From the NCBI RefSeq assembly GCF_018325905.1, contig NZ_AP021901.1:1922001-1986000 (forward strand): DNA of 64,000 nt, read 5' to 3'. Positions 1,112-21,900 of the stretch are shown piece by piece (within the stretch, counting starts at the first letter, position 1; every line of letters starts with the position of its first letter). The notes beneath the pieces are model-generated. The model did not search any database. It saw nothing but the letters and a program-made list of their open reading frames with translations, and was not told the DNA's origin. The stretch comes from Pseudomonas sp. St316. Lineage in GTDB: Bacteria > Pseudomonadota > Gammaproteobacteria > Pseudomonadales > Pseudomonadaceae. Both the position numbers and the translations under genes were made by a program.

Positions 1112-1463
1112 GGGGTTGGCTTCCTTATAGGTTTTGTTGAGCCAAGCATTGCTACAAGGGGGAAATGAATCCACCCTCAGCAGATTCTTTGAACAGAATC
1201 TGGTTTTTTATTCAGAATAAAATCAAAAATTCCGCTTTGTCCAGCCCAACCATCTGACTTATAGACAAACGAATTCCCTGCGTGGGGGCCTCCTTCGGAC
1301 CAATCTGGGCCTCTGGGAGCGAGCAAGTTCGCCCACATGGATCTTTGTCTGGCACGGCGATCGTCCCAGGTGACTGCCAGCATAGCCGTGCCAAATATTA
1401 ATTGCACATAAAATAAAATAGTGTTCATAATTTGCCGAGGCTGAACCTGATAAGGAGAAAAAA
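1112..1463. other. Divergent intergenic region, MFS / ferredoxin
   Basis: No convincing gene. The short minus-strand frames here are weak. The stretch is AT-rich near 1200-1230 and 1390-1430 and contains the cluster dyad at 1403-1427, so it most likely holds both divergent promoters. Confidence 0.6.
1403..1427. promoter_or_regulatory. 25-bp dyad operator, ferredoxin operon
   Basis: Half sites TGCACA and TGTTCA are separated by exactly 13 AT-rich bases. The same arrangement recurs upstream of six other operons of the cluster. It ends 36 bases before the ferredoxin start codon. It is probably the binding site of the TetR-family regulator encoded at 14861; the assignment is inferred. Confidence 0.7.
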
Positions 1464-1700
1464 ATGAGTTCAGAAAAAGCGCAATTCAAAGCCGTGGTAG
1501 ACCGTAGCCGCTGCTGTGGTTATGGTTTATGTGCCGCGATTTGCCCCAGCCTGTACAAGCTCGATGCCGATGGCCTGGTGTATTTCGACGACGCCCATAT
1601 CCCCCCGGAGTTGGAGGAGGAGGCCCGTGAGGGCGCTGCCGCCTGTCCCGCCGAGGCGATCTGGCTTGAACCCATCACCTCGGAAAACGAAGCCGTTTGA
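1464..1700 (+). CDS. Small 3Fe-4S-type ferredoxin, P450/oxygenase partner class
   Basis: This 78-residue protein has Cys17, Cys23 and a Cys61-Pro pair, while the position of the second cluster cysteine is Tyr20 (C-x2-Y-x2-C ... CP). That pattern is known from ferredoxins that serve bacterial P450s and usually hold a [3Fe-4S] or unusual [4Fe-4S] cluster. An extra Cys18 and Cys27-Pro flank the motif. It likely carries electrons to the P450 at 20574 or the Rieske oxygenase at 9125. No ferredoxin reductase is visible in the window. The start is supported by AAGGAG upstream. It is first in an operon with the SDR, ring-cleavage dioxygenase and FAA hydrolase. Confidence 0.85.
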   Translation: MSSEKAQFKAVVDRSRCCGYGLCAAICPSLYKLDADGLVYFDDAHIPPELEEEAREGAAACPAEAIWLEPITSENEAV

Positions 1701-1751
1701 CGGCATGAACGTTTGCCGCAATGTGATAACCACAGAGGTGAGGGTGTGCTG

Positions 1752-2510
1752 ATGGGACGTTTACAAGACAAAGTGGCGTTGATCACCGGTACCGGTGGTG
1801 GCCAGGGCCGGGCGGCGGCGCTGCGTTTTGCCCGCGAAGGCGCAATCGTGGTTGGTTGCGACGTGGTTGCCGAAGGTCATGAGGAGACGGCGGCCTTGCT
1901 GCGGGCCGAGGGCCATACCCTGTATGGCTCGGCGCCTGTGGACCTGGGCGATCATGAACAGGCCCAGGCCTGGATCGATGCCGCCGTCGCCGAACATGGG
2001 CGCATCGACATTCTCTACAACAATGCTTCCGCCGCTCGTTTCGGACTGGTCAGCGAACTGTCGATCGAGGATTGGCAGTACACCATGCGCAATGAAATCG
2101 ACCTGCTGTTCTATACCACAAAGTATGCCTGGCCCCACCTGGCCGAGCAGCGCGGGGTGATCATCAACGTATCGTCCACCGCAGCCTGGGGCGGCTCGAA
2201 AGTCGCCGGCATCAGCGCCCACTCGGCAGCAAAGGGGGCCGTGGTGTCGTTCACTCGCCAGCTGGCGGTGGAGGGCGCCCCGTTCGGCATCCGTGCGGTC
2301 AGCTTGAGTCCGGGATTTGTCGCCACCCCGGGTACCCGGCCGTTTCTGGAAGACCCGAAGATTCGCGCCATGCTGCTGGACGGCGTATTGATGGATCGCC
2401 CCGGCGAGCCTGAGGAAGTGGTGGCCATGGCGGTATTTGTCGCTTCGGATGAGGCCTCATTCATCACCGGTTCAGACTTCGTCATCGACGGTGGGTTGCT
2501 GGCTGTCTAG
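1752..2510 (+). CDS. Short-chain dehydrogenase/reductase with His at the catalytic Tyr position
   Basis: This is a 252-residue classical SDR with a Rossmann fold: TGTGGGQG cofactor motif near residues 12-19, NNAS near 86-91, and Ser141/Ser142 before the active site. The usual YxxxK reads His157-Ser-Ala-Ala-Lys161, so the catalytic tyrosine is replaced. It may be altered in activity, or the base may be a sequencing error. I chose the ATG at 1752, preceded by a GAGGTGAGGG ribosome site, over an upstream in-frame ATG at 1713. It would oxidise a diol or hydroxyacyl intermediate of the pathway; the substrate is unknown. Confidence 0.85.
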   Translation: MGRLQDKVALITGTGGGQGRAAALRFAREGAIVVGCDVVAEGHEETAALLRAEGHTLYGSAPVDLGDHEQAQAWIDAAVAEHGRIDILYNNASAARFGLVSELSIEDWQYTMRNEIDLLFYTTKYAWPHLAEQRGVIINVSSTAAWGGSKVAGISAHSAAKGAVVSFTRQLAVEGAPFGIRAVSLSPGFVATPGTRPFLEDPKIRAMLLDGVLMDRPGEPEEVVAMAVFVASDEASFITGSDFVIDGGLLAV

Positions 2511-2571
2511 CGCGGCGTCAGGGCGGGTGCCGCAGGCACCTTTCATCTCGAACAATAAAAAGGTGAATAAC

Positions 2572-3522
2572 GTGGACATCATCGGTATCGGTTACATGGG
2601 CTTCGAAACCCCCAATCTCGAGGCGTGGCGTGAGTACGGCCCGCAGGTAATGGGCTTTGGTATCGGCAAGAATCCCGAGAGTGACCCGGAGTCGCTGTAC
2701 TTCAAAATCGACGATCGACGCCATCGCTTCGCTTTTCATCCAGGCAAGGTAGACCGAATTGCCTACATCGGCTGGGAAGCGGTGGGGCGCATGGCGTTCG
2801 AAGAGGGCATCAGGAAGCTGGCGGCGGCGAATGTCGACTACAGCCGTGGCGACGCCCAATTGTGTGAAAAGCGCGGTGTGCGCGAATTGGTGCGCTTCCG
2901 CGACCCCGTGGGGTATCAGCACGAACTGTTTTACGGGCAGAAATGGCTGCCGCGCTCGTTCCAGCCAGGGCGTCCCCACAGTGGTTTCCTGGCTGACGAA
3001 CGGGGCGCGGGCCATGTGGTGCTGATCACCCCGGACTACACCCCGGAACTGGAAGACTTTCTGCTCAACGTGATGGGCTTCAGTTGGTATGGCGCGGGTG
3101 CGGGCAAAGGGCGAACCGGTTTCTTCCGCTCCAAACTCAACCATCACACCAGCCATGATATTGCCTATGGCCATGGGCCGGGACGCATGGGGGTGCAGCA
3201 TGTCGGGCTGTTCGTGCGCAATGTGCGGGATGTCGGGGAAACCTACGACATCGTGCGCCAGCGTGGGCTGCCGATGATGATGACCCTCGGCCAACATGCC
3301 CAGGACCCGCACCTGTCGTTCTACCATTTCAATCCGTCCGGTTTTGCCTTCGAGACCATTGCTGAAATCGAGCCATGGCAAGGCGATCCCTATGAGTTGA
3401 ACCCGGAAAAACTCAGCCTGTGGGGCCACGAAATGGTTGGCCCGATTCTCGGTCCCAGCGTCAAGACGCCGGAAGAAGTGCTCGATGCCGAGTACCTGAC
3501 GACGTACCTGGCCAAGCGCTGA
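2572..3522 (+). CDS. Type I extradiol ring-cleavage dioxygenase (VOC fold)
   Basis: The 316-residue protein has two vicinal-oxygen-chelate domains. His148, His210 and Glu261 fall where the Fe(II) ligands of BphC-type 2,3-dihydroxybiphenyl dioxygenases sit, and the stretch DPHLSFYHFNPSGF before the Glu carries the usual second-shell His and Tyr. It should cleave a catechol next to one hydroxyl (meta cleavage). Start is GTG at 2572 with an AAAAAGGTGA ribosome site; the frame extends further upstream but that part overlaps the SDR. It is followed after one base by an FAA-family hydrolase that could hydrolyse the ring-cleavage product. Confidence 0.9.
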   Translation: MDIIGIGYMGFETPNLEAWREYGPQVMGFGIGKNPESDPESLYFKIDDRRHRFAFHPGKVDRIAYIGWEAVGRMAFEEGIRKLAAANVDYSRGDAQLCEKRGVRELVRFRDPVGYQHELFYGQKWLPRSFQPGRPHSGFLADERGAGHVVLITPDYTPELEDFLLNVMGFSWYGAGAGKGRTGFFRSKLNHHTSHDIAYGHGPGRMGVQHVGLFVRNVRDVGETYDIVRQRGLPMMMTLGQHAQDPHLSFYHFNPSGFAFETIAEIEPWQGDPYELNPEKLSLWGHEMVGPILGPSVKTPEEVLDAEYLTTYLAKR

Positions 3523-3523
3523 T

Positions 3524-4408
3524 ATGCGTCTGGCGCGGGTCGAAGTCGCTGGGCAGGCGTTCTGGGCACTGTTGGATGGGCAAACCGAGCATTTGCGGCG
3601 GATTAACGCGCCGTTTTCCCACTGGGTCGGGCTGTGCGCGGATCTTGCGATAGACGCCCTGGACCTGGCAGGCCAATGGTTGCCGTTGTCAGCCGCGCGC
3701 CTGCTCGCGCCCTTGGAGCCGGGCAGCCGCGTCTTTGGTGTGGGCCTCAACTACCTCAGTCATCTCAAGCGCCTGGGCAGTGATGCGCCGGCGCACCCGC
3801 TGGCCTACATGAAGCCTGGGTCGGCGCTGGTCGGTGCCGATGACGATATCGACTACTCACCCTTAACCGCCCAACTTGACTATGAGGTCGAACTGGTCGC
3901 CGTGGTGGGCCGACCGTTGCTGGATGAACCCCATGCCAGCGATTGCCTGCTGGGGTACACGGTGGGCAATGACATCAGTGCTCGGGATGCCGGCAAGCAG
4001 ATTGGTCGCCTGGACCTGTTGACGCAGAAAGCCATGGATCGCACCACGCCGGTAGGTCCCTGGATCGTGACCACGGACGAAGTGGCCGTCAGGGGGCAAC
4101 CGGCTCTGGAGATGCGCCTGAGCGTCAACGATGAGTTGCGCCAGCAGGACAATACCCGGCAGATGATTTTTCCCTTGGACGAGTTGCTCAATTATTTGGA
4201 TGCGCGCATCAGCCTGCGCCCGGGTGACCTGGTGTTTACCGGTTCCACCCACGGCGTGGGGCTGGAAAGCGGGCGCTTTTTGCGCCCGGGTGACCGCGTC
4301 GAGGCCGAAATCGAAGGCATCGGCCGACTGCGCAATACCATTGCTGCGCCACGCCCGCTCAGCCCCGCCCGTGCGGTCGGGCGACTGGGCCTGCCGCTGG
4401 ATAAGTGA
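3524..4408 (+). CDS. Fumarylacetoacetate hydrolase family protein
   Basis: This is a 294-residue member of the FAH fold. GVGLNYLSHLKRLG begins the catalytic domain, and Glu121, Glu123 (EVE) and Asp150 (GNDISARD) match the divalent-metal ligands of the family. Such enzymes hydrolyse C-C bonds in acylpyruvates or tautomerise/decarboxylate meta-cleavage products. It starts one base after the extradiol dioxygenase stop codon, so it probably acts on that product. It is one of three FAH-family genes in the cluster (also 8012 and 16990). Confidence 0.88.
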   Translation: MRLARVEVAGQAFWALLDGQTEHLRRINAPFSHWVGLCADLAIDALDLAGQWLPLSAARLLAPLEPGSRVFGVGLNYLSHLKRLGSDAPAHPLAYMKPGSALVGADDDIDYSPLTAQLDYEVELVAVVGRPLLDEPHASDCLLGYTVGNDISARDAGKQIGRLDLLTQKAMDRTTPVGPWIVTTDEVAVRGQPALEMRLSVNDELRQQDNTRQMIFPLDELLNYLDARISLRPGDLVFTGSTHGVGLESGRFLRPGDRVEAEIEGIGRLRNTIAAPRPLSPARAVGRLGLPLDK

Positions 4409-4411
4409 AAG

Positions 4412-4690
4412 ATCCTGTACCAAGTGACGGCGCCAGAGCGCGATGAATTTGATCGCCGTGTACGCTGTAGGTAAGGCGCGACGGCGCAACGGTGCGCAAA
4501 ACTGGTGCCTTTACCGCGACATGGCGGACCCGCAACTCTACAGTGAGCGCTTTATTGTCGAGTCCTGGCTGGAGTATCTGCGCCAGCAGATGCGGGTGAC
4601 CCAGGCTGACCATGCCCAGGAGTGTCTCATTGAGCGTTTTCGTCGAGAGAACCTGCAAACCCGCCGGCTGATTTACCAGCCGTTAGAGAA
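4412..4690 (+). pseudogene. Frameshifted C-terminal remnant of an MFS_3-type transporter
   Basis: The translation reads ILYQVTAPERDEFDR in one frame and then VYAVGKARRRNGAQNW, CLYRDMADPQLYSERF and IVESWLEYLRQQ in another. This resembles the cytoplasmic C-terminal domain found in the transmembrane-secretion-effector MFS family. A frame change near 4455-4460 is needed to join the parts and no membrane segments remain. It appears to be a decayed fragment between the FAH gene and the IclR gene. The family match is from memory. Confidence 0.5.
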
Positions 4691-4791
4691 ATACTCCGTC
4701 TCAAGTGTTCGACTAATTCCCAGATAAAACTTTCACGTTGTCGTTCATTCTCAGGCTAGAATGCCGGCACTTTAAAGTGACGGGATCGGGC

Positions 4792-5576
4792 ATGGAATTC
4801 ACTGACGTCAATGACAGCACCAAATCGGCCGGCGTAACCCTCGTCAAGCCCGTTTCCAACGCCATTCGCATCCTGCGCTACCTCAGTCAGGTGGGCACAC
4901 CGGAACGTTCGGTGGATATCGCCCGGCAACTGAAGATCAATCCCAGCACCTGCTTCAATATCCTGCGCACCCTGGTCCAGGAGGAAGTGGTTGATTTCAG
5001 TCCCATGTCCAAGCGTTACTCCGTGGGCCTGGGGCTGGCGCGTTTAGTCGAGCAATTGGTCACCCAGGGCCACCGCGTACAGATGGCCAAACCCCTGTTG
5101 CAGAACCTGGCTGCACGCCTGCGAGTGACCATCACCCTGTGGCGCAAGATGAGCCCTGATCGCATCGTCATTGTCAGCTCCGCGGCCAGCCCGACCGATG
5201 TGCGCATCGACATGGCCGAAGGTCAGCGCCTGCCGATTCTGATGGGTGCCAGTGGCCGTCTGTTCGCCACGCAGATCGACCTTGACGACCCCGAGGTACA
5301 AAGCAGTTTCGAGACCATCCGCTGGGCTCAACCGCTGTCGCTGGAGGTTTACCGCAAGGAAGTGAGACAAGCTGCCGAGCGTGGTTGGGCGGTGGATGAT
5401 GGCCATTTCTCGGGGGGATTCTTGCCATTGCGGCGCCGGTCTACTCACCGACCAACAGCATCGACTTCACCGTTTCAGCGGTGATGTTCCGTGGACAACG
5501 GGATGAAGCGGGCCTTGCCGAACTGGGCAAGGCGCTGATCGAGTTCTGTAACGAAGTGGCTGGCGTTCTCTACTGA
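4792..5576 (+). pseudogene. IclR-family regulator, frameshifted in a poly-G tract
   Basis: The frame starts at ATG 4792 and encodes an N-terminal winged helix (KPVSNAIRILRYLSQ through STCFNILRTLVQEE) followed by an IclR effector domain. At the run of six G (5412-5417) the reading frame shifts: the conserved C-terminal part (ILAIAAPVYSPTNSIDF ... EFCNEVAGVLY, stop 5576) is in the next frame. One additional G restores a complete protein of about 260 residues. It is therefore a recent pseudogene, a phase-variable tract or a sequencing error. It could regulate the adjacent aromatic genes as IclR proteins often do. Confidence 0.78.
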
Positions 5577-5585
5577 GGCGCGCGG

Positions 5586-6776
5586 TCACTCGCGCACCAA
5601 CAGCAGGCTGCCTCCCAGCGGACCGCCGCCGGCGGCCACCGCACTGACGCGGTGTTCGCGGGTTTGTCGGCCTTCGGCACGCCCCCACAATTGCAGGCAG
5701 GCTTCGTGCACATAACCCAGGCCGTGGGTGCGCCCGCCAGACAGTTGCCCGCCATTGGTGTTGATGGGCAAGCTGCTCTCCAGCGCAATGCGCGTGCCAC
5801 CCTCGACAAACCCGCCACTTTCCCCGGTCGGGCACAACCCCAGGGCTTCCAGCCAGATAAGGGTCAAAATCGAAAAACCGTCATACAACTGCGCAGAGCC
5901 AACGTCCTGCGGAGTGTAGTCGGTGCGTGCCCACATCATCTGGCCGACATCGAAGGCGGCCATCCTGGTCAGGGAAATCTGGTCCCACGACCATGGCTGG
6001 TTCAACGCCGCGCCCATGGCCTCGATGCGGATCGGTGCGTTCGACAGATCCCGCGCGATATCGCGACGCGACAGGATGATGGCGGTGGATGCATCGCAAT
6101 GCACGTCGCAGTCGAACATGCGCAGAGGAGAGGAAATCATCCGCGACGCCATGTAGTCGTCCATGCTCATGGGCGTTCGGTACAGCGCTTTGGGGTTGCG
6201 CATGGCGTTCTGGCGACACGTCAGGGCGATTTGCGCCAGTTGCTCTGGCCGGGTGCCGTACTCATGGAAGTGACGTTGGGCATACAGCGCCATCAGGTTG
6301 ATGCCCGATTGCACATTGAAAGGGGTAAACCACTGCCAGGCGTAGCTGCTGTCGCGACCTTGAGTCTTGTTGGTGAGAGCGCCCGCTTGTTTGTTGACCC
6401 TGCGAGCCGACGCTTCGGTGATAGTACGAAACACCAGTACGTGATTACACAGGCCCGCCGCAATCGCCATGGCGCCATTGATCACGCCAGTGAGTGGGCC
6501 AGGTCCTTCATAACCGCCGCCGAACCAGTTGACGTTGAGCCCAAGGGCACTTTTCAGTGCGCTGGGGCCGACCGGGGAGAACGGGTCACCGTTATTGTTG
6601 TCGCCCGGCCAGCAGGCCACGCCGTCGATATCGCTGCGTTGCAGGCCAGCGTCGGCAATCGCTTCCAGGCAGGCATCCAGCGTCAGGCGCATCGCCGACT
6701 TGTTCGAGGGGCGCCCGACTTCCGATTGGCCGACGCCGGTGATGGCGACGTCTTTTTCATAACGATGATCGAACAT
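5586..6776 (-). CDS. SCP2-thiolase-like protein (Ltp2/IpfD-type lyase)
   Basis: This is a 396-residue protein of the sterol-carrier-protein-x thiolase group: DVAITGVGQSEVGRP at the N-terminus and GGRTHGLGYVHEACLQ with the conserved His near the C-terminus. The segment where true thiolases carry the nucleophilic cysteine (GGGYEGPGPLTGVINGAM) has none, as in Ltp2-type aldolases. Those enzymes work with a DUF35 partner and cut a CoA-bearing side chain by retro-aldol chemistry; ipfD of ibuprofen degradation is of this kind. Its ATG overlaps the stop of the DUF35 gene by one base, so the two are translationally coupled. Start with AAGGATC is preferred over an upstream GTG at 6806. Confidence 0.82.
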   Translation of the reverse strand: MFDHRYEKDVAITGVGQSEVGRPSNKSAMRLTLDACLEAIADAGLQRSDIDGVACWPGDNNNGDPFSPVGPSALKSALGLNVNWFGGGYEGPGPLTGVINGAMAIAAGLCNHVLVFRTITEASARRVNKQAGALTNKTQGRDSSYAWQWFTPFNVQSGINLMALYAQRHFHEYGTRPEQLAQIALTCRQNAMRNPKALYRTPMSMDDYMASRMISSPLRMFDCDVHCDASTAIILSRRDIARDLSNAPIRIEAMGAALNQPWSWDQISLTRMAAFDVGQMMWARTDYTPQDVGSAQLYDGFSILTLIWLEALGLCPTGESGGFVEGGTRIALESSLPINTNGGQLSGGRTHGLGYVHEACLQLWGRAEGRQTREHRVSAVAAGGGPLGGSLLLVRE

Positions 6777-7174: not shown

Positions 7175-7221
7175 CAGCGCTCCGCAGGTGAGTATTTGAC
7201 TGGAAGTCATACGGTATCATT

Positions 7222-7246
7222 TGTACATATTTTCTAAAAGTGTCAT
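7222..7246. promoter_or_regulatory. 25-bp dyad operator between DUF35 and SDR genes
   Basis: TGTACA, 13 AT-rich bases, then TGTCAT. The second half site is weaker than the consensus TGTTCA but spacing and AT-rich centre are kept. It is placed to control both divergent transcripts. Confidence 0.6.
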
Positions 7247-7313
7247 ATATTTGTTCCGACGAAGGCACGAATCGACCGTTCGCGCCGTAAAACAACAACA
7301 AGAGGATTTTGCG

Positions 7314-9010: not shown

Positions 9011-9052
9011 CTATGATGCGAGGACGGAGACATTCACCGCTCGCGAATTAAA

Positions 9053-9077
9053 TGTACAGAAATATAGAAAGTGTCTT
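9053..9077. promoter_or_regulatory. 25-bp dyad operator, Rieske dioxygenase operon
   Basis: TGTACA, 13 bases, TGTCTT. It lies 47 bases upstream of the Rieske alpha start, in the 114-base gap after the FAH gene. Similar in bases to the 7222 site, which also has TGTACA on the left. Confidence 0.6.
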
Positions 9078-9124
9078 ATATTTTGTGGCGACCAACCGTG
9101 TAACGCTCTGATCAGGAGGCAATC

Positions 9125-10525
9125 ATGCTAACAAAAACAAGCCCCGTATTGTCCGATGGAACCAAGGTCTCGGACCTCATCTACCCCTCTAGCCGTGAAG
9201 TGCAAATGCGCGTGTTGTCTGACCGCGAAATTTACGAACTGGAGATGGAAAAGATCTTCGGCAAGATCTGGGTACTCCTGGGGCACGAGTCGGAAATTCC
9301 CAACTCCGGAGACTTCATGGTCCGAGACCTGGGGTCCGATTCCGTCATTGTGGCCCGTGGCAAGCAGGGCGAGGTGTTCGTGACCCTTAATGTGTGCCCG
9401 CACCGCGGGATGCGCATCAGCACCGCCGACTGCGGCAATACGCAAATTCATAAATGCATCTATCACGGCTGGGCGTTCCGCCCCAATGGCGATTTCATCG
9501 GCTCGCCCGTCGAACGTGAATGCATGCACGGCAAGATGTTGCCCAAGGAAGAACTGGGCCTGAAGAAGGCGCGGGTCACGCTGTATGGCGGCCTGGTATT
9601 TGCCACCTGGAATATCGATGGGCCCTCGTTCGACGAGTTCCTGGGCGATGCCAAGTGGTATTACGACATGCTGTTCTGTCGCTCCGACAAGGGCATGGAA
9701 GTCCTCGGCCCACCGCAGCGCTTTATCGTCAACGCCAACTGGAAAACGGCGGGCGAGCAATCGGCGGCGGACGGTTTCCACACGCTGACCCTGCACCGTT
9801 GGTTGGGTGAGGTGGGTAATTACGCCAAGAAAGGCGAGGGCGAGACAGCCGACCTCAGCCCGGAAATGATTGGCGTGGAAATCAGCTCGCCGCACGGTCA
9901 TGCACTGCGCTGCATCGACCTGGCGCGCAAGATCAAGCGCCTGACCGGCCTCGATCCGGCGGAGTTGACTGTGCAGCAGAAACTTGAAGCATTGCCGCCG
10001 GCCGGCATGACGGCCGACATGGTCGAGCAGTTGGCACGCAATCTGACCGAAGATCAATTGAACGTGCTCACCAGCATGCCGCCCCAGGTCGGTGGGATGT
10101 TCCCGAACATTCTTTTCGGCTTTGTCTACATTCCGCAGCCAGATGGCTCTGTCGTTGGCTCGATGACCCTGCATGCTTACGTACCGCAAGGCCCGGACAA
10201 GCTCGAGTTCGTCAACTGGGTGTTTGCCGAGAAAGACGCCTCCCCGGAACTGCGCGACAAGATGCTCAAGCAAACCATCCAGCTGTTCGGCACCTCTGGC
10301 ATGGTTGAGCAGGATGACTCCGACACCTGGCCGCACATGACCCTGGCCGCCAAAGGGGCAATGGGCCGCAAGAGCACGCTGAAATACCAGGCCTGCTTTG
10401 AAACCGGCGCACCTGAAGGCTGGCCTGGCCCCGGCATCGTCAATGAAGGCTTCACCAAGGACGATACCCAGTGGCACTGGTGGTTGTACTGGCATGAGCT
10501 GATGACGGCATCGGATGACCAGTAA
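9125..10525 (+). CDS. Rieske non-heme iron dioxygenase, alpha subunit
   Basis: The 466-residue protein has a Rieske motif Cys91-x-His93-x17-Cys111-x2-His114 and a mononuclear iron site with His219 and His224 (DGFHTLTLH) and an Asp in the EQDDSD stretch at 397-398. These are the hallmarks of ring-hydroxylating dioxygenase large subunits. A strong AGGAGG ribosome site precedes the ATG at 9125. In the ipf-like model it would dioxygenate the aryl-CoA formed by the ligase at 13045. Electrons would need a reductase and ferredoxin; only the small ferredoxin at 1464 is in view. Confidence 0.93.
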   Translation: MLTKTSPVLSDGTKVSDLIYPSSREVQMRVLSDREIYELEMEKIFGKIWVLLGHESEIPNSGDFMVRDLGSDSVIVARGKQGEVFVTLNVCPHRGMRISTADCGNTQIHKCIYHGWAFRPNGDFIGSPVERECMHGKMLPKEELGLKKARVTLYGGLVFATWNIDGPSFDEFLGDAKWYYDMLFCRSDKGMEVLGPPQRFIVNANWKTAGEQSAADGFHTLTLHRWLGEVGNYAKKGEGETADLSPEMIGVEISSPHGHALRCIDLARKIKRLTGLDPAELTVQQKLEALPPAGMTADMVEQLARNLTEDQLNVLTSMPPQVGGMFPNILFGFVYIPQPDGSVVGSMTLHAYVPQGPDKLEFVNWVFAEKDASPELRDKMLKQTIQLFGTSGMVEQDDSDTWPHMTLAAKGAMGRKSTLKYQACFETGAPEGWPGPGIVNEGFTKDDTQWHWWLYWHELMTASDDQ

Positions 10526-12067: not shown

Positions 12068-12092
12068 TGAACACTATAAACAAAAATGTTCA
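12068..12092. promoter_or_regulatory. 25-bp dyad operator between DUF2889 and SDR genes
   Basis: TGAACA, 13 AT-rich bases, TGTTCA: a perfect inverted repeat of the six-base half site and the best copy in the window. It ends 25 bases before the SDR start and 51 bases from the DUF2889 start. Confidence 0.78.
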
Positions 12093-12918: not shown

Positions 12919-12990
12919 TTGAGCCCGTAAATGTGGGGGCGAGCTTGCTCGCTCCTGTGACCGGATACGGCGCCAGACCCAAAAAACGCG

Positions 12991-13014: not shown

Positions 13015-13044
13015 CTGTGTTGGCGCGTACCAAGCAAGAGGCCG

Positions 13045-14676: not shown

Positions 14677-14739
14677 CAGTTTTCTCCTTTTAGGCGCCCA
14701 CGTTGGTAAGGGTTGCCTGATTTTATTTTGAAGAGAGAA

Positions 14740-14764
14740 TGAGATTCTAAATAGAAAATGTGAA
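14740..14764. promoter_or_regulatory. Weak candidate dyad operator upstream of the CoA ligase
   Basis: TGAGAT, 13 AT-rich bases, TGTGAA. Spacing fits the other sites but only seven of twelve half-site bases match the consensus. A separate TGAACA half site follows at 14784-14789. It lies between the divergent ligase and TetR genes, where a regulator could control itself and the ligase. Confidence 0.35.
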
Positions 14765-14860
14765 AATGTCTTTAGCAATAAGTTGAACATATCCTGTTAT
14801 TTATGCCCAGATCCTGTGGTAACGTTGCGCCATCTTTACTTTCCTTGAGCGCATCGATCC

Positions 14861-15592
14861 ATGCCAAAAGCCGCATCCCTGAAAACAGAAGCGCCTACGC
14901 CGGCCTCCAGAACGAAGAAAAAGGCGTTGCCTGATACAGGGGCGAGCCAGGTTAAACCGGTCGAGCGACGTATCGCTGCCAATGGAGGGGCAGGGATCAA
15001 GGTGAAGCCGAACCGACGTTCGGAAGAGACAATCGCCAATATCCTCAAGGCCACTGAAGAAGTGGTGTTGATGTCCGGTGCCGATCGTATTTCGATCCTG
15101 GATGTGTGTCAGGTCGCGGGTGTTTCGCGGGGGACCTTCTACCGCTATTTCGCCTCCCAAGAAGATCTGCTGGACACTTTTTCGCGGCACAAACGCGAAA
15201 GTTTCCACAGCTCGCTGTCCCAGGAGCTGGGGCATATCAGTGATCCGGAAGCGCGTCTGAATGCGCTGTTCGCTTATCTCGACAATTACCTTGAGCAAAG
15301 TCGGGCGCGGCGCCTTCTGGTGGTTGCCCCTGATTATGCGTTGGGTTTTTTCCGGCGGATTTTCCACGATTCGATCGTGCGTTTTCAGGATGGCTTGGGC
15401 ATTGTTTTCGACGATTGGGACGAGCGCCTGGGGGTACGTCTTGACCGTGAGTTGATCTGCGAAATGATCATTCGTTATGTGTTGAGCGAAATCCTGGTGC
15501 CGGAAGCCGCGGGGCGACGCTTGTTCCCGGTGCGGATGAAAAAACTGCTGGGTGCGCTGATCATGGGTTCCACATCCCGTACCCGCCGCTGA
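14861..15592 (+). CDS. TetR-family regulator with extended N-terminus
   Basis: The 243-residue protein has a typical TetR helix-turn-helix at about residues 55-105 (SILDVCQVAGVSRGTFYRYFASQEDLLDTF), preceded by a basic, proline- and alanine-rich tail of about 50 residues rare in the family. The C-terminal part is the variable ligand-binding domain. It is divergent from the CoA ligase and sits in the middle of the cluster. The recurring 25-bp dyads are the kind of long palindrome TetR proteins bind, so it is the best candidate for the pathway regulator; inducer possibly an acyl-CoA intermediate. Confidence 0.88.
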   Translation: MPKAASLKTEAPTPASRTKKKALPDTGASQVKPVERRIAANGGAGIKVKPNRRSEETIANILKATEEVVLMSGADRISILDVCQVAGVSRGTFYRYFASQEDLLDTFSRHKRESFHSSLSQELGHISDPEARLNALFAYLDNYLEQSRARRLLVVAPDYALGFFRRIFHDSIVRFQDGLGIVFDDWDERLGVRLDRELICEMIIRYVLSEILVPEAAGRRLFPVRMKKLLGALIMGSTSRTRR

Positions 15593-15621
15593 CCTTCGAC
15601 AAATCACCCATCGCTTGACTA

Positions 15622-15650
15622 AAGCCCTCGCATATCGAGGGCTTCGCGTT
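15622..15650 (+). terminator. Rho-independent terminator after TetR gene
   Basis: Nine-base stem AAGCCCTCG / CGAGGGCTT with a five-base loop, followed by CGCGTTT. It lies about 30 bases after the TetR stop codon. Confidence 0.7.
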
Positions 15651-15925
15651 TCCGGGCGCTAGTTTTTTCGCCGCTGCACTCCTCATTTTTCGAGCTTGGC
15701 TCGTGCTTTCCAATCCCTCGATGCGTTTCAAGACTTAGGTCGAAGGCCCTGCGTCAGGCTTCCTGGCGATTTTTCAAAATAAATTGAACAGTATTTTGAT
15801 TTCTGCTCAATTTAAATTTAAGCTCTGGTCCTGGTAGTAAGTCTTTTCGTGACGGGTCGATCCTGTCCATGTGAAGGCGCCGCGCTAATAAACCAACAAA
15901 AAGTGCCAACCTCGAGGTACCAGAC
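15651..15925. other. Leader region of the amidohydrolase operon
   Basis: No gene is seen between the TetR terminator and the amidohydrolase start. The region holds the 15786-15810 dyad and an AT-rich stretch after it (15811-15830) that may contain the promoter. Confidence 0.55.
15786..15810. promoter_or_regulatory. 25-bp dyad operator, amidohydrolase-thiolase operon
   Basis: TGAACA, 13 bases, TGCTCA; flanking bases extend the dyad to ATTGAACAG / CTGCTCAAT with one mismatch. It is 116 bases upstream of the operon of five genes starting at 15926. Confidence 0.72.
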
Positions 15926-16990
15926 ATGCTTATCGATCTACACGCCCACGCACCACACCCTGGCTATTACAACCAGCACCCTCACTGGGGGCCGTTCTTC
16001 GAACAACATGCCGACGGCGATATCAAGCTGCGTGTAGGTGATTGGATTCTCGGGCTTGGGTCGCCCGAGCGTAAGGCGGCCGTGCGCTCGGGCAACGGTC
16101 CCAAGCTTGAGGAGTATTTTGCTCGCTGGGCTGACCCGAAAACGCGTCTGGCCGGCATGGATGCCGCGGGACAGAATTTGCAGGTGGTTTCTGTCCCATC
16201 CCATTGCTACATGTACTGGACCGAAGCCGAATTTGCCGTACCGTTCGCCCGCACCGTCAATGAGACGCTGGCGCAATACTGCTCCGCCGCCCCTGATCGC
16301 CTGATGTTCTGGGCCCATGTACCGCTCAATGCTCCCGAAGCGGCGGCGGCTGAATTGCGCTACGCCTGCACCGAGCTGGGCGCCAAGGGCTTGGTCGCCG
16401 GAGGGGCCAACTTCGGCGGCCTGGAGTTCGATTCGCCGGAGCTCGACGTGGTATGGAGAACCCTCTGCGACCTGGATCTGCCGATGTTCATCCACGGCTA
16501 CAACCAGTCGGTCACGTGGGGTAAGAACGCCAATGATGACCGTTACGAAACCACTGCCATCGTAGGCATGCAGTACGACGAAAGCCGCTGTTTCTGGAAC
16601 CTGATTTGCGGCGGTGTGCTGGATCGTTTTCCCGATTTGAAGGTGTACATCACCCATGGAGGTGGTTATGTCCCGTACCAGCTCGGTCGCCTGGCCAAGA
16701 CCAACGAAAACCTCGACGTCAAATACAACAAAAAGCCGCTGCTCGAGTACATGAAGAACTTCTACTTCGACGTCGAGCTGCATGAAGTGCCGATGCGCCA
16801 GGCTCTGGTCGATATCATTGGGGCAGACCACGTGCTGTACGGCAGCAACTTCGGCGGCAGCGATGCCGTGCGTCACGACCTGACCCATGGTTTGAAGTTG
16901 TCCGACGCGGACCTGCGCAAGATTCGCTATGAAAACGCATGCCGCCTGCTGCACTTGGATCCCGCCAAGTTGGGCAAGGTAGGTGCCTGA
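15926..16990 (+). CDS. ACMSD-like amidohydrolase
   Basis: The 354-residue metal-dependent hydrolase-fold protein has the His6-x-His8 pair (DLHAHAP), His190 (FIHGY) and His244 (ITHGGG). These match the zinc ligands of the 2-amino-3-carboxymuconate-semialdehyde decarboxylase group, whose members decarboxylate or hydrate ring-derived acids. The final family aspartate region reads YGSNFGGSD, so Asn may occupy the usual Asp position. It heads an operon with FAH, 3-hydroxyacyl-CoA dehydrogenase, thiolase and a CMD-like gene and overlaps the FAH start by one base. Confidence 0.85.
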   Translation: MLIDLHAHAPHPGYYNQHPHWGPFFEQHADGDIKLRVGDWILGLGSPERKAAVRSGNGPKLEEYFARWADPKTRLAGMDAAGQNLQVVSVPSHCYMYWTEAEFAVPFARTVNETLAQYCSAAPDRLMFWAHVPLNAPEAAAAELRYACTELGAKGLVAGGANFGGLEFDSPELDVVWRTLCDLDLPMFIHGYNQSVTWGKNANDDRYETTAIVGMQYDESRCFWNLICGGVLDRFPDLKVYITHGGGYVPYQLGRLAKTNENLDVKYNKKPLLEYMKNFYFDVELHEVPMRQALVDIIGADHVLYGSNFGGSDAVRHDLTHGLKLSDADLRKIRYENACRLLHLDPAKLGKVGA

Positions 16991-17841
16991 TGAAACTGGC
17001 GCGTTGTGAGTATTTTGATACTGGGGTTTTTTGGGCGGTGGTTGATGTCGCTCAGAATCAGGTGACACCCATTTGCGGAGAGTTCAAAGACTGGGCACCC
17101 GCGGTGGCGGCCGGGCGCGGTATCAGTTCGGTACGTTTCGCCGGGCCCTCGTTGCCGCTCTCCAAAGTACGTTTGCTGCCGCCTATTGAGCCTGTCAACC
17201 GAGTGGTGGTGGCGGGAGCCAATTACGCCAAGCATCTGGTGGAGTTCGGCTTGCAGGCGCCGGCGCAGCCGGTTGCATTCCTCAAGGCCTATGGCGCGTT
17301 GATTGGCGCCAATGACCCTATCCGCTTTCCTCCGTTGACTGAGGAGCTCGATCACGAAGTCGAGTTGGTCGCGGTCATTGGCACCGATGAGATCGACCTG
17401 GAAAACCCGCTGGCTTGCGTGCTCGGTTACACGGTCGGCAACGACGTCAGTGCCCGAGACCTGCAACGCAGCGGGCCTGCGGGGATTGGCATGGACCTGT
17501 TCGCGGCGAAAAGCCAGGACCAGACCACCGGCCTCGGGCCCTGGATCGTCACCAAGGACGAGTTCCCGGAAGGTTCGCCGCGGCTGCGCCTGACCTTGAA
17601 GGTGAACGGTGAAGTACGTCAGGACGGATCGACAGCGGAAATGACCTGGGATGTCGGTCAACTGATCCGCTTCGTGCAGCAGCGTTCGAGTTTCGCCGGT
17701 GGCGACGTGCTATTCACCGGTTCGCCAGCGGGGGTGGGGATGGGCACCGGTGTGTTCCTCAAGGAAGGCGACGTGGTCGAAGCCAGCGTCGAGGGCATTG
17801 GCACGTTGCGCAATGTGGTCAGTAAAAAGAACTGCGCCTAA
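16990..17841 (+). CDS. Fumarylacetoacetate hydrolase family protein
   Basis: This is a 283-residue FAH-fold enzyme with AGANYAKHL leading into the catalytic domain and metal ligands Glu123, Glu125 (EVE) and Asp152 (GNDVSARD). It is similar in size and layout to the enzyme at 3524 and shares its short N-terminus (MKLARCEYF against MRLARVEVA), suggesting an old duplication. The ATG at 16990 overlaps the amidohydrolase stop codon by one base and is preferred over an upstream frame start at 16939. Confidence 0.88.
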   Translation: MKLARCEYFDTGVFWAVVDVAQNQVTPICGEFKDWAPAVAAGRGISSVRFAGPSLPLSKVRLLPPIEPVNRVVVAGANYAKHLVEFGLQAPAQPVAFLKAYGALIGANDPIRFPPLTEELDHEVELVAVIGTDEIDLENPLACVLGYTVGNDVSARDLQRSGPAGIGMDLFAAKSQDQTTGLGPWIVTKDEFPEGSPRLRLTLKVNGEVRQDGSTAEMTWDVGQLIRFVQQRSSFAGGDVLFTGSPAGVGMGTGVFLKEGDVVEASVEGIGTLRNVVSKKNCA

Positions 17842-17854
17842 TCGAGAGCCAAAC

Positions 17855-18757
17855 ATGAACGCCAATAAAGAAAAAGTAGTCGTCGTCGGTGCTGGCTTGA
17901 TGGGTACCGGTATTGCACATGCGTTCGCCAGCTCCGGGTTCAACACGTTGCTGGTCGATACCAATGCCGCCTCATTGACAAATGCCAGGGCGAGCATCGA
18001 AAAGATCCTTGCCGATGGTGTGCGCCTGGGCAAAGTCAGTGACGAAAAAGCCCAGCAGTCCCTGGCCAACCTGCTGACCTGCAGCGACCTGAGCGAAGCC
18101 GCGAGTGGCGCAAATTGGTTGGTGGAGACGGTGTCCGAGCAGTTGGCGGTGAAGAAAACCGTTATCGCTCAGGCGGCGCCACTGCTGGCACCGGACGCGA
18201 TTATCGCGACCAATACTTCGGCCCTCAGCGTGACCGAAATTGCTGCGTCGGTGGACTGTTCGGATCGCGTGATCGGCATGCACTTCTTCAACCCCGTGCA
18301 CAAGATGAAGCTGGTGGAGCTGGTGCGAGGGTTGGCCACTCGCGATGAAGTCGTGGCGCGTACGCGCACCCTGTGTGAGCAGATCGGCAAAACCTCTATC
18401 GTCGTCAATGAATCGCCAGGACTGACCACCAGCCGCATGTCTGCGCTCTTGGGTAACGAGGCGATGTGGATGCTCCAGGAGGGTACGGCGACCGCCGAAG
18501 ACATCGACACGGCGTTGCGCCTGGGCTTCAACCATCCGATGGGACCATTGGAGCTGGGTGACCTGACTGGTTGGGATACGCGGTTGTCGGTGCTGCGCTA
18601 TTTGCACCAGACCCTGGGCGAAAAATTCCGGCCTTGCCCGCTGATCATCAAAATGGTTGCCGCCGGGCGGCTGGGTCGCAAGTCGGGGCAGGGGGTCTAC
18701 CGCTATGAAGAGGGTAAACAAGTTCCGGGTTCGGGGCTCAAGGCGAGCGCGCTATGA
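17855..18757 (+). CDS. 3-hydroxyacyl-CoA dehydrogenase
   Basis: This 300-residue protein has the N-terminal Rossmann motif VVVGAGLMGTGIAHAF, the catalytic region GMHFFNPVHKMKLVELV and the C-terminal NHPMGPLELGDLTGWD of the PaaH/HBD family. It oxidises L-3-hydroxyacyl-CoA to 3-ketoacyl-CoA with NAD. Its stop codon overlaps the thiolase ATG (18754-18757), so hydroxyacyl oxidation and thiolysis are produced together. Confidence 0.92.
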   Translation: MNANKEKVVVVGAGLMGTGIAHAFASSGFNTLLVDTNAASLTNARASIEKILADGVRLGKVSDEKAQQSLANLLTCSDLSEAASGANWLVETVSEQLAVKKTVIAQAAPLLAPDAIIATNTSALSVTEIAASVDCSDRVIGMHFFNPVHKMKLVELVRGLATRDEVVARTRTLCEQIGKTSIVVNESPGLTTSRMSALLGNEAMWMLQEGTATAEDIDTALRLGFNHPMGPLELGDLTGWDTRLSVLRYLHQTLGEKFRPCPLIIKMVAAGRLGRKSGQGVYRYEEGKQVPGSGLKASAL

Positions 18758-19929
18758 AAGACATCGTCATCGTTGATGCCGTACGTACGCCAATCGGCAA
18801 GTTCCGTGGCGGCCTTGCCAGCGTGCGCGCCGATCATCTTGGGTCGCTGGTGCTCAACCGCTTGCTGGAGCGGGTCGATGTGTCGCCGAATCTGGTCGAT
18901 GATGTGATCTTCGGTTGCGTCACGCAAATCGGTGAGCAGTCCGCCAACATCGCCCGCACAGCCTTGCTCGGTGCCGGATGGCCAGTGACTGTTCCGGGGC
19001 TGACCATCGACCGCAAATGTGGTTCGGGTGAAGTGGCGGTGCATGTGGCTGCTGGCGCTATTGCTGCTGGCGCCGCTGATGTCGTGGTGGCGGGGGGCGC
19101 GGAAAACATGAGCCGCGTGCCCATGGGCAGCAATCGCGAAATTCACGGCGAGGCGTTTGGCTGGATGGTGGCGCAGCGTTATGAACTGACTGGTCAAGGC
19201 GAGGCAGCCGAGCGTATCGCCGACAAATGGGGGCTCAGCCGTGATGCCCTGGATGATTTTGCGTTCGCCAGTCATCAGCGCGCCGCCTCGGCGTCCGATG
19301 CCGGTTATTTCGATCATGAAATCGTGCCGGTTGCGGTCGAGGAGTTGTCTGAGCGGGTGCTGGCGGCGCCGGCCGCTGTGTTGCGTCAGGATGAAACCAT
19401 TCGTCGTGACACGTCGCGGGAAAAGCTGTCGACGCTTAAGACCAGTTTTCGTCCGGACACTGGACGCATTACGGCTGGCAACTCGTCGCAGATCTCCGAT
19501 GGTGCTGCGGCTTTATTGTTGATGAGTGCCGAAACCGCGAAAAAACTCGGGCTCAGGGCGCGCGCGCGGGTTGTGGCCTTCACCACGGTCGGTTCCGATC
19601 CGACGTTGATGCTCACAGGCCCCATCGATGCCACCTGGAAGGTATTGAGCAAGGCCGGGCTGAGCATCAACGACATCGACCTGTTCGAAGTCAATGAGGC
19701 GTTTGCCTCCGTGCCGCTGGCGTGGATGCGGGAAACCGGTGTGCCTCACGATAAGTTGAACGTCAACGGTGGCGCCATCGCCCTCGGTCATCCGTTGGGT
19801 GCCAGCGGTGCGCGATTGATGACGACTTTGTTGAACGAGCTCGAACGCCGTGGTGGTCGTTTTGGCCTGCAAGCCATTTGCTGCGCTGGCGGCATGGGCA
19901 CGGCGACCATCATCGAACGGCTCGATTGA
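18754..19929 (+). CDS. Acetyl-CoA acetyltransferase / 3-ketoacyl-CoA thiolase
   Basis: The 391-residue thiolase has the nucleophilic Cys89 in DRKCGSGE, NVNGGAIALGHPLGASG with the active His, and the second Cys in CCAGGMGTA. All catalytic elements are present, unlike the thiolase-like protein at 5586. It should cleave a 3-ketoacyl-CoA from the pathway to acetyl- or propionyl-CoA. Confidence 0.93.
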   Translation: MKDIVIVDAVRTPIGKFRGGLASVRADHLGSLVLNRLLERVDVSPNLVDDVIFGCVTQIGEQSANIARTALLGAGWPVTVPGLTIDRKCGSGEVAVHVAAGAIAAGAADVVVAGGAENMSRVPMGSNREIHGEAFGWMVAQRYELTGQGEAAERIADKWGLSRDALDDFAFASHQRAASASDAGYFDHEIVPVAVEELSERVLAAPAAVLRQDETIRRDTSREKLSTLKTSFRPDTGRITAGNSSQISDGAAALLLMSAETAKKLGLRARARVVAFTTVGSDPTLMLTGPIDATWKVLSKAGLSINDIDLFEVNEAFASVPLAWMRETGVPHDKLNVNGGAIALGHPLGASGARLMTTLLNELERRGGRFGLQAICCAGGMGTATIIERLD

Positions 19930-19930
19930 G

Positions 19931-20434
19931 ATGGCGCGCCTACCGCTGGTTTCGCTGGAGGCCATGCCGGTTGCGTTGCAGGACGCAGTCGAGCGTGGTC
20001 GGTACAGCCGCATGCTCAGTTCCACGACGCCGGTTCAGGTCTGGGCGCATCGACCGGCGGTAGCGCTGGCTTGGCTGGGCTTGATGGAGAGCTTGCACAA
20101 CGACAGTGTGCTCGATGAGCGCTTGCGCGAGCTGGTGCGGCTGAAGATTGCCAGCATCACCACCTGCAAGGCCTGCCAACTGGCGCGTAAGTCCGATGCG
20201 GTCACTGAGGAAGATATTGCGTGCATGGCAACGGACAGCGCGTCCTTCACGCCAGCCGAGCGCGCTGCGCTGCGTTATGCCGAGTTGTTTGCCGGCGACT
20301 ACCTGGCAATTGACGACACCGATTTCCTCCAGCTTGGGGACTTCTTCTCCACGGCCCAAGTGGTAGAGCTTGGGCTGTATTGCGCGCTGATGTTGGCTGG
20401 AGGTCGTATGACCCTGGTGCAGCAGGCCTATTGA
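19931..20434 (+). CDS. Carboxymuconolactone-decarboxylase/AhpD-like protein
   Basis: This 167-residue helical protein has LRELVRLKIASITTCKACQLARKSDA, the CxxC-bearing helix of the CMD/AhpD family (with Lys in place of the usual third-position aromatic). Members are small peroxidases or lactone decarboxylases. The ATG is at 19931, one base after the thiolase stop codon. It is the last gene of the 15926 operon. Its reaction here is unknown. Confidence 0.78.
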   Translation: MARLPLVSLEAMPVALQDAVERGRYSRMLSSTTPVQVWAHRPAVALAWLGLMESLHNDSVLDERLRELVRLKIASITTCKACQLARKSDAVTEEDIACMATDSASFTPAERAALRYAELFAGDYLAIDDTDFLQLGDFFSTAQVVELGLYCALMLAGGRMTLVQQAY

Positions 20435-20457
20435 TACCTTCGATGTCGAGGTATATA

Positions 20458-20482
20458 TGATCTATTTTTTAATAAGTGTCCA
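20458..20482. promoter_or_regulatory. 25-bp dyad operator, P450 gene
   Basis: TGATCT, 13 AT-rich bases, TGTCCA. The right half is near consensus, the left half is weak. It ends 91 bases before the P450 start. Confidence 0.5.
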
Positions 20483-20573
20483 ATAGTGTTCGGGCAAGGC
20501 CTATGATTGGCCGTAAAGTATGGCCTTAAGCGAGCTTTCTTGAAAAATAATGACAAAAATTACGGAGACGATC

Positions 20574-21851
20574 ATGTCCACACCCGCACAGAGTGACCTG
20601 GTCAAGGTTTTTACTGACGTAGCCAGTAATTATCGCGGCACCAGCGATATCGACTTGCACGCGGTCTACCGCGACATGCGCGCCAACTCGCCGGTGCTGC
20701 AAGACAATTTCATGGCCCGGCTGGGCGTGCCCTCGATTGCCGGGCTGGATGCCAGTCGACCGACCTTCACATTGTTCAAGTACGACGATGTCATGGCTGT
20801 CATGCGTGACGCCGGCACCTTCACGAGTGGTTTCATCGCGGAAGGGCTGGGTGCGTTTTTCGATGGCTTGATCCTCACGGCAATGGACGGGGATGCCCAC
20901 AAGAACATCCGTAACCTGTTGCAGCCGGTCTTCATGCCGGAGACGGTGAATCGCTGGAAAGAAACCAAGATCGACCGGGTGATTCGCGAGGAATACCTCA
21001 AGCCGATGGTGCAGGCCAAAGGCGCGGACCTGATGGATTTCGCGCTGTATTTCCCCATCCGGGTAATTTACTCGTTGATCGGCTTCCCCGAGGACCGTCC
21101 CGAGCAGATCGAGCAATACGCTGCCTGGGCCCTGGCCATTCTGGCGGGTCCGCAAGTCGACCCGGAAAAAGCCGCGGCTGCCCGGGGCGCCGCCATGCAA
21201 GCGGCGCAGTCCTTGTATGATGTGGTGAAAGTAGTCGTGGCCGAGCGTCGCGCAAGCGGGGCATCGGGCGATGATCTGATCAGCCGGCTGATTAACGCCG
21301 AATACCAGGGTCGCTCCCTGGACGATCATGAGATTGCCACCTTTGTGCGTTCGCTGCTTCCGGCTGCCAGTGAAACCACAACCCGAACCTTCGGCACCTT
21401 GATGTCCTTGCTTCTGCAAAATCCGGACGTACTGGAGCGGGTGCGCAATGACCGCAGCCTCGTGAACAAGGCCATCGATGAAGCGGTGCGCTTTGAACCG
21501 GTGGCTACTTTCAAGGTGCGTCAGGCCGCTAAAGACCTGGAGATTCGTGGCGTGCCCATCCCTAAGGGGGCGATGGTGCAATGCATTGTCACTTCCGCCA
21601 ACCGCGATGAAGAGGCGTTCGAAAATGCCGATCAATTCGACATCGACCGAAAACCCAAACCCTCGTTCGGCTTCGGCTTCGGTCCGCACATGTGTATCGG
21701 TCAGTTCGTTGCCAAAACCGAGATCAACTGTGCGCTGAATGCCATCCTCGACCTCATGCCCAACATTCGCCTCGACCCGAGCAAACCCGGCCCGCAAATC
21801 GTCGGCGCGCAGCTGCGCGGCCCGCACTACCTGCATGTGCAGTGGGACTGA
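20574..21851 (+). CDS. Cytochrome P450
   Basis: This soluble bacterial P450 has 425 residues. The heme loop is FGFGFGPHMCIG with thiolate Cys374, the ExxR pair is in DEAVRFEP, and the I helix reads LPAASETTTRTFG, keeping the acid-alcohol pair. ATG 20574 has an ACGGAG ribosome site; the frame also opens at 20550. It likely hydroxylates the substrate or a side chain, with the ferredoxin at 1464 as a possible electron donor. It carries its own dyad operator. Confidence 0.92.
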   Translation: MSTPAQSDLVKVFTDVASNYRGTSDIDLHAVYRDMRANSPVLQDNFMARLGVPSIAGLDASRPTFTLFKYDDVMAVMRDAGTFTSGFIAEGLGAFFDGLILTAMDGDAHKNIRNLLQPVFMPETVNRWKETKIDRVIREEYLKPMVQAKGADLMDFALYFPIRVIYSLIGFPEDRPEQIEQYAAWALAILAGPQVDPEKAAAARGAAMQAAQSLYDVVKVVVAERRASGASGDDLISRLINAEYQGRSLDDHEIATFVRSLLPAASETTTRTFGTLMSLLLQNPDVLERVRNDRSLVNKAIDEAVRFEPVATFKVRQAAKDLEIRGVPIPKGAMVQCIVTSANRDEEAFENADQFDIDRKPKPSFGFGFGPHMCIGQFVAKTEINCALNAILDLMPNIRLDPSKPGPQIVGAQLRGPHYLHVQWD

Positions 21852-21875
21852 TGGGCGCTTGGGTCTGATTTAATA

Positions 21876-21900
21876 TGAACACAAATAAAAAATGTGTTTA
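21876..21900. promoter_or_regulatory. 25-bp dyad operator, second amidohydrolase operon
   Basis: TGAACA, 13 AT-rich bases, TGTTTA. Eleven of twelve half-site bases match. It lies 64 bases upstream of the amidohydrolase start at 21965. Confidence 0.72.

Follow-up and report, generated by a model that had tools for sequence, protein, structure and literature searches.

The 64-kb window analysed here, the whole stretch 1922001-1986000 of the single 6.78-Mb contig of Pseudomonas sp. St316, carries a recurring 25-bp dyad, TGNACA-N13-TGTNNA, in front of at least seven operons of a putative dit (abietane diterpenoid, resin-acid) cluster. The dyad is very probably the operator of the TetR-family regulator encoded at 14861, which would repress the dit operons until released by an inducer, with the IclR-type DitR as a second and narrower regulator. 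The sites, their conservation and confinement, their promoter geometry and the co-occurrence with the TetR gene were computed.

The Rieske dioxygenase encoded at 9125 (DitA1) was used as a query against named genomes and identified 139 confirmed loci. The best 80 of these served as the set of relatives (loci are labelled L### and genomes G###), and 36 of the 80, at less than 90% DitA1 DNA identity, were taken as representatives. The top matches were Pseudomonas umsongensis, P. mandelii and relatives with 98% identity. DitA1 was 94% identical to that of P. abietaniphila ATCC 700689 (L027), where the neighbouring genes match too, and 75% identical to that of Paraburkholderia xenovorans LB400. 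The gene order is ditA3, ditB, ditC, ditD, ditR, ditF, ditG, ditH, ditA1, ditA2 and a coenzyme A (CoA) ligase gene, and it agrees with the dit gene list in the accessible part of PMC12628601, where the IclR regulator is listed as ditR. Because the DitA1 relatives and the gene order fit this list, positions 1464-26401 are read as the dit cluster. The gene names follow order and similarity; the labels ditC and ditG were given by place and by eye only, and neither of these two genes heads a promoter count.

A sequence-only reading of the window had listed seven dyads with a constant 13-base spacer, and all seven were found. Six were placed exactly, and the one given as 15786-15810 lies one base further left. 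The consensus proposed for them holds strictly at three places (1403, 12068 and 21876), which give 5 strand-matches where 0.49 are expected, a number reached in 0 of 100 shuffles. With one mismatch allowed, 7222, 9053 and 15785 were added, and the 26 strand-matches (11.4 expected) were reached by 1 of 100 shuffles; the dyad at 20458 has two mismatches. Since consensus searches are blunt, matrices were used instead. A held-out matrix was built from 71 sites of 22 distant loci (DitA1 identity at most 87%) and contained no site from this genome. It placed the seven dyads at ranks 1-7 in the window with 19.8-32.6 bits; the maxima in 50 local shuffles had a mean of 11.9 and a largest value of 21.2 bits. 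A two-box scan against shuffled sequence had been proposed earlier as a check, and here the seven sites came out on top. Rank 8 was the site at 1190, followed by two AT-rich places outside the cluster at 55070 and 38240 (16-17 bits) and by the site at 14748. A supposed weak eighth dyad by the ligase at 14740-14764 had been misassigned, as it ranked 183rd and is mainly another palindrome, AGAAT-N3-ATTCT. When all spacers from 0 to 30 were compared for TGAACA/TGTTCA in the window, the spacer of 13 stood out with one match at 12/12 and four at 11/12 (1190, 1403, 15785 and 21876); every other spacer had none at 12/12 and at most one at 11/12.

Confinement of the dyad was tested with a sequence-only covariance model made from 62 of 67 collected sites and 36 reverse complements. 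The genome scans scored the best 150 of 372 candidates (361 in the second scan of this genome). In the 6.78-Mb genome, 17 strand-hits were obtained, of which 16, representing 8 sites, lie within the 47 kb from 1896536 to 1943903 and one lies elsewhere at E=3, so the earlier idea of a local regulon was borne out. The eight sites are six of the seven window dyads and two sites upstream of the window. The weak sites at 1190, 14748, 20458 and genome position 1901753 were missing because the best 150 candidates were scored. As judged from its sites, the putative regulon extends to further units upstream of the window and spans about 47 kb. A second cytochrome P450 gene (64%) between the upstream dyads had no dyad of at least 11 bits. 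Among 38 genomes including this one, a TetR ortholog was found in two, and these two alone gave several hits at E≤0.1, 13 in one and 12 in the other. The other 36 genomes gave no hit in 34 cases and one marginal hit each in two.

The dyads are conserved at orthologous promoters. With a matrix of the seven window sites applied to the 80 loci, dyads were found, among the matches listed, in Pseudomonas, Halopseudomonas, Paraburkholderia and Acidovorax and likewise in Thauera/Aromatoleum, Zoogloea, Colwellia and Spongiibacter. In 35 representative loci (L001 was excluded from this count), 119 of 215 orthologous upstream regions scored at least 18 bits, compared with a mean of 1.4 (standard deviation 3.0, maximum 35) for 200 column-permuted matrices. 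This threshold was reached in 29/30 regions of the amidohydrolase operon, 26/31 of the OB-fold gene, 18/23 of ditA3 and 26/34 of the short-chain dehydrogenase/reductase (SDR) gene. As a control the spacer was changed: no region reached 18 bits with spacers of 10, 12 and 16, and 11, 14 and 37 regions did so with spacers of 11, 14 and 15, respectively. We ascribe the value of 37 to one half-site and the AT tracts, which still score. A matrix-free count with near relatives left out showed ACA-N13-TGT as the top inverted pair. It was present in 66 of the 128 regions against an expectation of 6.5 (z 27.8), and the runner-up, TCT-N6-AGA (23 of 128 regions), followed at z 11.0. Weaker or stronger dyads were also seen in many relatives at a position similar to that of the 1190 site. 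In three loci, overlapping dyad pairs share a TGTACA/TGCACA box, so that three boxes follow one another every 19 bp (L045 9913/9932, L072 8733/8752 and L079 3043/3062).

To describe the dyad, 105 sites of the ditA3, ditA1, SDR and amidohydrolase promoters were aligned; they had been picked at 16 bits or more, which biases the conservation figures upward. The ACA and TG cores were near-invariant, positions 7-10 and 14-17 were mostly A/T, and symmetrical A/T flanks lengthen the palindrome to about 33 bp (AAtw-TGnACA-N13-TGTnCA-waTT). In the window, the promoter-like pairs 1403-1431, 7222-7251 and 9053-9082 start on the left box, and the second hexamer overlaps either the last bases of the right box or those adjoining it. 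Among the sites of the representative loci, the best pair with at least 8 matches started on the left box in 17/17 cases at ditA3 (of 23 sites), 20/22 at ditA1 (of 23) and 18/19 at the OB-fold gene (of 30). The SDR dyad often follows directly after a TATATT-like hexamer, as seen by eye. The distance from its end to the first aligned codon has a median of 24 bp in the 34 regions measured and ranges from 15 to 91 bp, with 25 regions falling between 15 and 26 bp. The median dyad-to-gene distance ranges from 24 to 121 bp between promoters. Both placements, on the -35/-10 interval and just before the SDR gene, fit best with the positions of a repressor that would occlude the promoter.

The protein encoded at 14861 has an N-terminal TetR_N helix-turn-helix (PF00440, 36.2 bits, cut-off 24). 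Its predicted fold has 11 helices from residue 52 on, with an all-helical domain after the helix-turn-helix (mean predicted local distance difference test score, pLDDT, 76), and TetR-family structures, though scoring modestly (E 1e-4 to 1e-3), were among the best structural matches. Of the named NCBIfam TetR equivalogs (BetI, MtrR, FadR, AcrR, KstR and others), 14 matched, all below their cut-offs, the best with 35.2 instead of 201.3 bits. Orthologs are present in 74 of the 80 dit loci, and five of the other six genomes carry one further off (51-91% identity); the sixth locus, L079, is a 4.4-kb contig and was not checked for TetR. A search for the regulator in 14 genomes was positive in every one. 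In 32 orthologs, the helix-turn-helix sequence SRGTFYRYF and the N(R/K)RSE arm in front of it were near-invariant, like the ACA and TG cores of the dyad. The basic N-terminal tail, singled out before as unusual, is variable, predicted to be disordered (residues 1-49) and about 14 residues long in L085; the conserved parts are the arm and the helix-turn-helix. The tetR gene has a dyad of its own 34-44 bp upstream of the open reading frame in L083 (Spongiibacter) and L084 (Aestuariicella). In L045 and other Paraburkholderia a dyad lies near the tetR start, in L045 inside the longest tetR open reading frame just before an internal ATG. The half-conserved dyad at 14748-14772 is a possible autoregulatory site of TetR. 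Chromosome 3 of P. xenovorans LB400 (L070, L088) encodes two TetR copies, 56-57% identical to that of the window, and the second lies near a P450 gene with its own dyad.

The second regulator, DitR, was found in 56 of the 80 dit loci. The search was extended to 14 whole genomes, which cover 12 of the 24 loci that lack DitR, and 11 of the 14 have an ortholog (48-91%). The whole-genome search gave no match in Spongiibacter thalassae (G010) and only remote IclR matches (E 1e-5) in Pseudomaricurvus alkylphenolicus (G011); in Aestuariicella hydrocarbonica (G014) only a 28% relative was found on another contig (E 8e-28). The dit loci of all three genomes keep dyads. Because DitR has no ortholog in three genomes with dyads and TetR was present in all genomes searched, the TetR protein appears the likelier binder. 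In the window, the last approximately 40 codons of ditR are in another frame than in relatives, either as a real frameshift or as a sequencing error. The gap between ditD and ditR measures about 330 bp here (4409-4737), 110 bp in L002 and about 1.7 kb in L001, where the extra DNA probably encodes the ditE permease.

The runner-up of the matrix-free count, TCT-N6-AGA, led to palindromes at the ligase and ditR genes. Of 27 regions upstream of the ligase, 25 contain AGAA-N5-TTCT, and of 23 representative regions upstream of ditR, 22 contain (A/G)TTCT-N6-AGAAT. The N6 form occurs only twice in the whole window. Upstream of ditA3, at a distance of 268-342 bp, 21 of 56 loci have an N6-type palindrome, P. 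abietaniphila among them, but only 4 of 24 representatives do. The overlap with this palindrome at 1184-1199 makes the 1190 dyad ambiguous. At dyad promoters the DitR-type patterns are rare (ditA1 0/36, SDR 0/35, OB-fold gene 2/32, amidohydrolase 2/31). Searched with two mismatches, AGAAT-N3-ATTCT was not above chance in the window (20 versus 16.3 expected). A second perfect AGAATGAGATTCT lies at 60642-60654 outside the dit cluster. In several loci a third half-site was seen by eye beside the palindrome, which recalls the PcaU and PobR operators of the IclR family. The ligase is instead preceded by a TetR-type dyad in L085, which has no DitR, and in L086. Neither palindrome form was found in L074 or in L086, a Colwellia genome with DitR (48%), and the assignment to DitR is therefore tentative. 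With moderate confidence, we regard AGAAT-N3-ATTCT and ATTCT-N6-AGAAT as the DitR operator.

Could DitR bind the dyad itself and activate the dit operons? It is encoded within the cluster, and Martin and Mohn (2000) reportedly described an IclR-type activator of ditA3 in strain BKME-9; this activation could be explained by the DitR-type palindrome upstream of ditA3. We consider the possibility unlikely, since the three genomes without an ortholog still carry dyads, a different palindrome marks ditR, the ligase and some Pseudomonas ditA3 upstream regions, the position of the SDR dyad suits a repressor, and ditR is frameshifted in this genome. That the dyad is no operator and acts as a bipartite promoter element, either for an alternative sigma factor or as -35 and -10 hexamers with an AT-rich spacer, would agree with the -35-like left box at several promoters. 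This is extremely unlikely, however, as the two boxes mirror each other as reverse complements and are flanked symmetrically by A/T bases, the 7222 dyad serves divergent genes, the distance to the gene varies down to the close placement at the SDR gene, and the genomes without TetR are nearly free of hits. Chance likeness of AT-rich promoters would account for the many one-mismatch matches and for the two unrelated AT-rich places at 16-17 bits; it has next to no probability and is refuted by the permuted matrices, the held-out ranks, the matrix-free count and the confinement in the genome.

Several observations weigh against TetR as the binder or against the repressor geometry. A regulator from outside the cluster that always accompanies the dit genes might bind the dyad, and in L081 the upstream dyads have AraC-like and LysR-like open reading frames, classed by eye, in their vicinity; with TetR present in every genome searched, this is highly unlikely. 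The comparison of the 38 genomes ties the dyad to the whole dit cluster and not to TetR alone. None of 29 representative loci had a site of at least 16 bits in the 220 bp before the aligned start of tetR, and only 1 of 26 ligase upstream regions reached 18 bits, so autoregulation is not general. Conservation in the representative loci was uneven, as at least 18 bits were found in 18/35 regions of ditA1, 1/4 of the P450 gene and 0/3 of the second amidohydrolase gene; the latter is preceded by dyads in L085, L086 and L102. The sites in relatives were gathered with the matrix of this window, a selection bias from which the matrix-free count is exempt. The promoter scan of the window was near chance overall (8 pairs, 5.9 expected) and showed no pair between 15.5 and 27 kb, where 3.5 were expected. 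The best pair started on the left box at only 7/15 amidohydrolase promoters (of 30 sites) and 1/2 SDR promoters (of 29), and the reverse orientation scored higher at 24/30 OB-fold sites, which is the ditG direction, and at 12/29 SDR sites. Because the dyad boxes resemble TTGACA, the match between the left box and a -35 hexamer is also partly built in.

Returning to the TetR protein as the repressor, the following sequence of events is proposed. Without inducer, TetR would sit on the dyads, on or beside the dit promoters, and block RNA polymerase. Probably two dimers occupy each site, because the boxes lie 19 bp apart and the recognition helices of one TetR dimer are 31-38 Å apart, too close for this spacing. 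In the QacR, CgmR and CprB dimer-of-dimers class, whose operators measure 22-32 bp in the accessible part of that work, the helices are 37-38 Å apart (PMC4150764). By analogy with MbdR, a resin acid or a derivative such as its CoA ester may release TetR, and the dit units would open together. DitR would act through a palindrome of its own, placed at the promoters of ditR and the CoA ligase and also, in some Pseudomonas, before ditA3. We infer binding, repression, the two dimers and the inducer.

In five assemblies of a betaproteobacterial group (L061, G005, which is L062, G128, G147 and G163), three complete TetR domains were found in one open frame, with a length of 689-737 amino acid residues in four of the five. 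The family to which G005 belongs was searched in 294 genomes; 7 gave a match, and the triple form was seen in 4. In L061 and L062, 6 of 8 dyad promoters carry at least two dyads 34, 41 or 66-67 bp apart, compared with 5 of 121 in the other representatives; L061 contributed sites to the matrix used for these counts. The amidohydrolase promoters of L100 and L101 have dyad pairs 35 and 34 bp apart, L101 has a weak SDR pair (42 bp) and one dyad at ditA1, and L102 has no close pair. Since the assemblies are related, the fusion and doubling events may be few. A possibility, less likely than not, is that TetR covers the dyads as a dimer of dimers and that the triple chain bridges doubled operators at steps of 34-35 or 41-42 bp, regulator and array having co-evolved. 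No report of a fused TetR was found in a single literature search, which brought up chemistry alone.

Table 1. Regulators, dyads and palindromes of the dit cluster (window positions unless a genome or locus is named)
Feature	Position	Strand	Remarks
TetR-family regulator	14861..15592	+	Proposed dyad-binding repressor; from PF00440, orthologs and fold
DitR-like IclR regulator	4738..5484	+	From family and relatives
Dyad, ditA3 promoter	1403..1427		Ferredoxin ATG at 1464; left box is a -35-like hexamer, CATAAT after it
Dyad, divergent promoter	7222..7246		Between ditG-like SDR (+) and ditF-like OB-fold/thiolase genes (-)
Dyad, ditA1 promoter	9053..9077		Overlapped by TGTACA-N18-TATATT
Dyad, SDR promoter	12068..12092		Perfect TGAACA-N13-TGTTCA; start codon about 25 bp downstream
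Dyad, amidohydrolase operon	15785..15809		Upstream of operon
Dyad, P450 gene	20458..20482		TGATCT...TGTCCA, upstream of gene; held-out rank 7; same site before P450 in L089
Dyad, second amidohydrolase/acyl-CoA dehydrogenase operon	21876..21900		Held-out rank 1; counterpart L089 16544
Possible extra dyad	1190..1214		TGAACA-N13-TATTCA, one good half; upstream of divergent permease-like gene (minus, ATG 1111)
Weak half-conserved dyad	14748..14772		TAAATA-N13-TGTCTT between ligase and TetR gene; rank 11; GACA half kept in Pseudomonas (by eye)
Upstream dyad	genome 1896540 (L081 14540)		26 bits; before oxidoreductase-like open reading frame
Upstream dyad	genome 1899585 (L081 17585)		29 bits; before amidohydrolase, 43% to that at 15926
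Upstream dyad	genome 1901753 (L081 19753)		20 bits; before SDR
Second palindrome AGAATGAGATTCT (AGAAT-N3-ATTCT)	14736..14748		Ligase promoter; overlaps the 14740 site; probable DitR operator
DitR-type palindrome ATTCT-N6-AGAAT	4747..4762		ditR promoter
DitR-type palindrome ATTCT-N6-AGAAT	1184..1199		Upstream of ditA3 and divergent permease; overlaps 1190 dyad
Fused triple TetR	L062 15437-17560; L061 13581-16427		

The breakdown of resin acids is relevant to pulp-mill effluent, bark decay and bark-beetle symbioses, and DitR is the sole dit regulator named in the accessible parts of the literature examined. A probable TetR-type operator that stands before the majority of the dit operons and is conserved from Pseudomonas as far as Paraburkholderia, Thauera and Spongiibacter points to a testable master switch. 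Scanning for the dyad would find unlinked pathway genes, a resin-acid biosensor could be built, and the triple TetR with its doubled operators makes the co-evolution of regulator and operator testable.

Compared with known systems, DitR of P. abietaniphila BKME-9 belongs to the same cluster and differs from the TetR protein in family and in its probable operator; moreover, three genomes with dyads lack an ortholog of it. The regulator of cholesterol catabolism, KstR, is a TetR-family member with a local polycyclic catabolic regulon. Its structures 3mnl and 5fmp were among the structural matches of the 14861 protein; the NCBIfam KstR model scored 20.7 against a cut-off of 280, so it is not the same member. 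With 25-33 bp the dit dyad has at least the 22 bp typical of the QacR class, as far as the accessible text describes it; the sequences are unrelated, and the two dimers are what we infer for the dit sites. No description of the dit operator or its TetR was found in the literature, including the accessible parts of PMC10710418, PMC13063091, PMC6891630, PMC12628601 and PMC3570484, the search lying mostly outside subscription papers. The regulatory logic is known, and the dit TetR operator itself is apparently undescribed. The closest likeness in the text available is MbdR of Azoarcus sp. CIB, the TetR repressor of the mbd 3-methylbenzoate cluster, where the TetR of the cluster likewise has one long palindrome (ATAC-N10-GTAT) repeated at several cluster promoters; its sites overlap the -35, the -10 or +1, and both the regulator gene and the CoA-ligase gene have one as well (PMC4424350). 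The MbdR operator differs in sequence and length (18 bp compared with 25-33 bp here), and the inducer is known for MbdR only. In the dit cluster, more units are involved, with seven window dyads and up to three upstream, and the ligase carries another palindrome.

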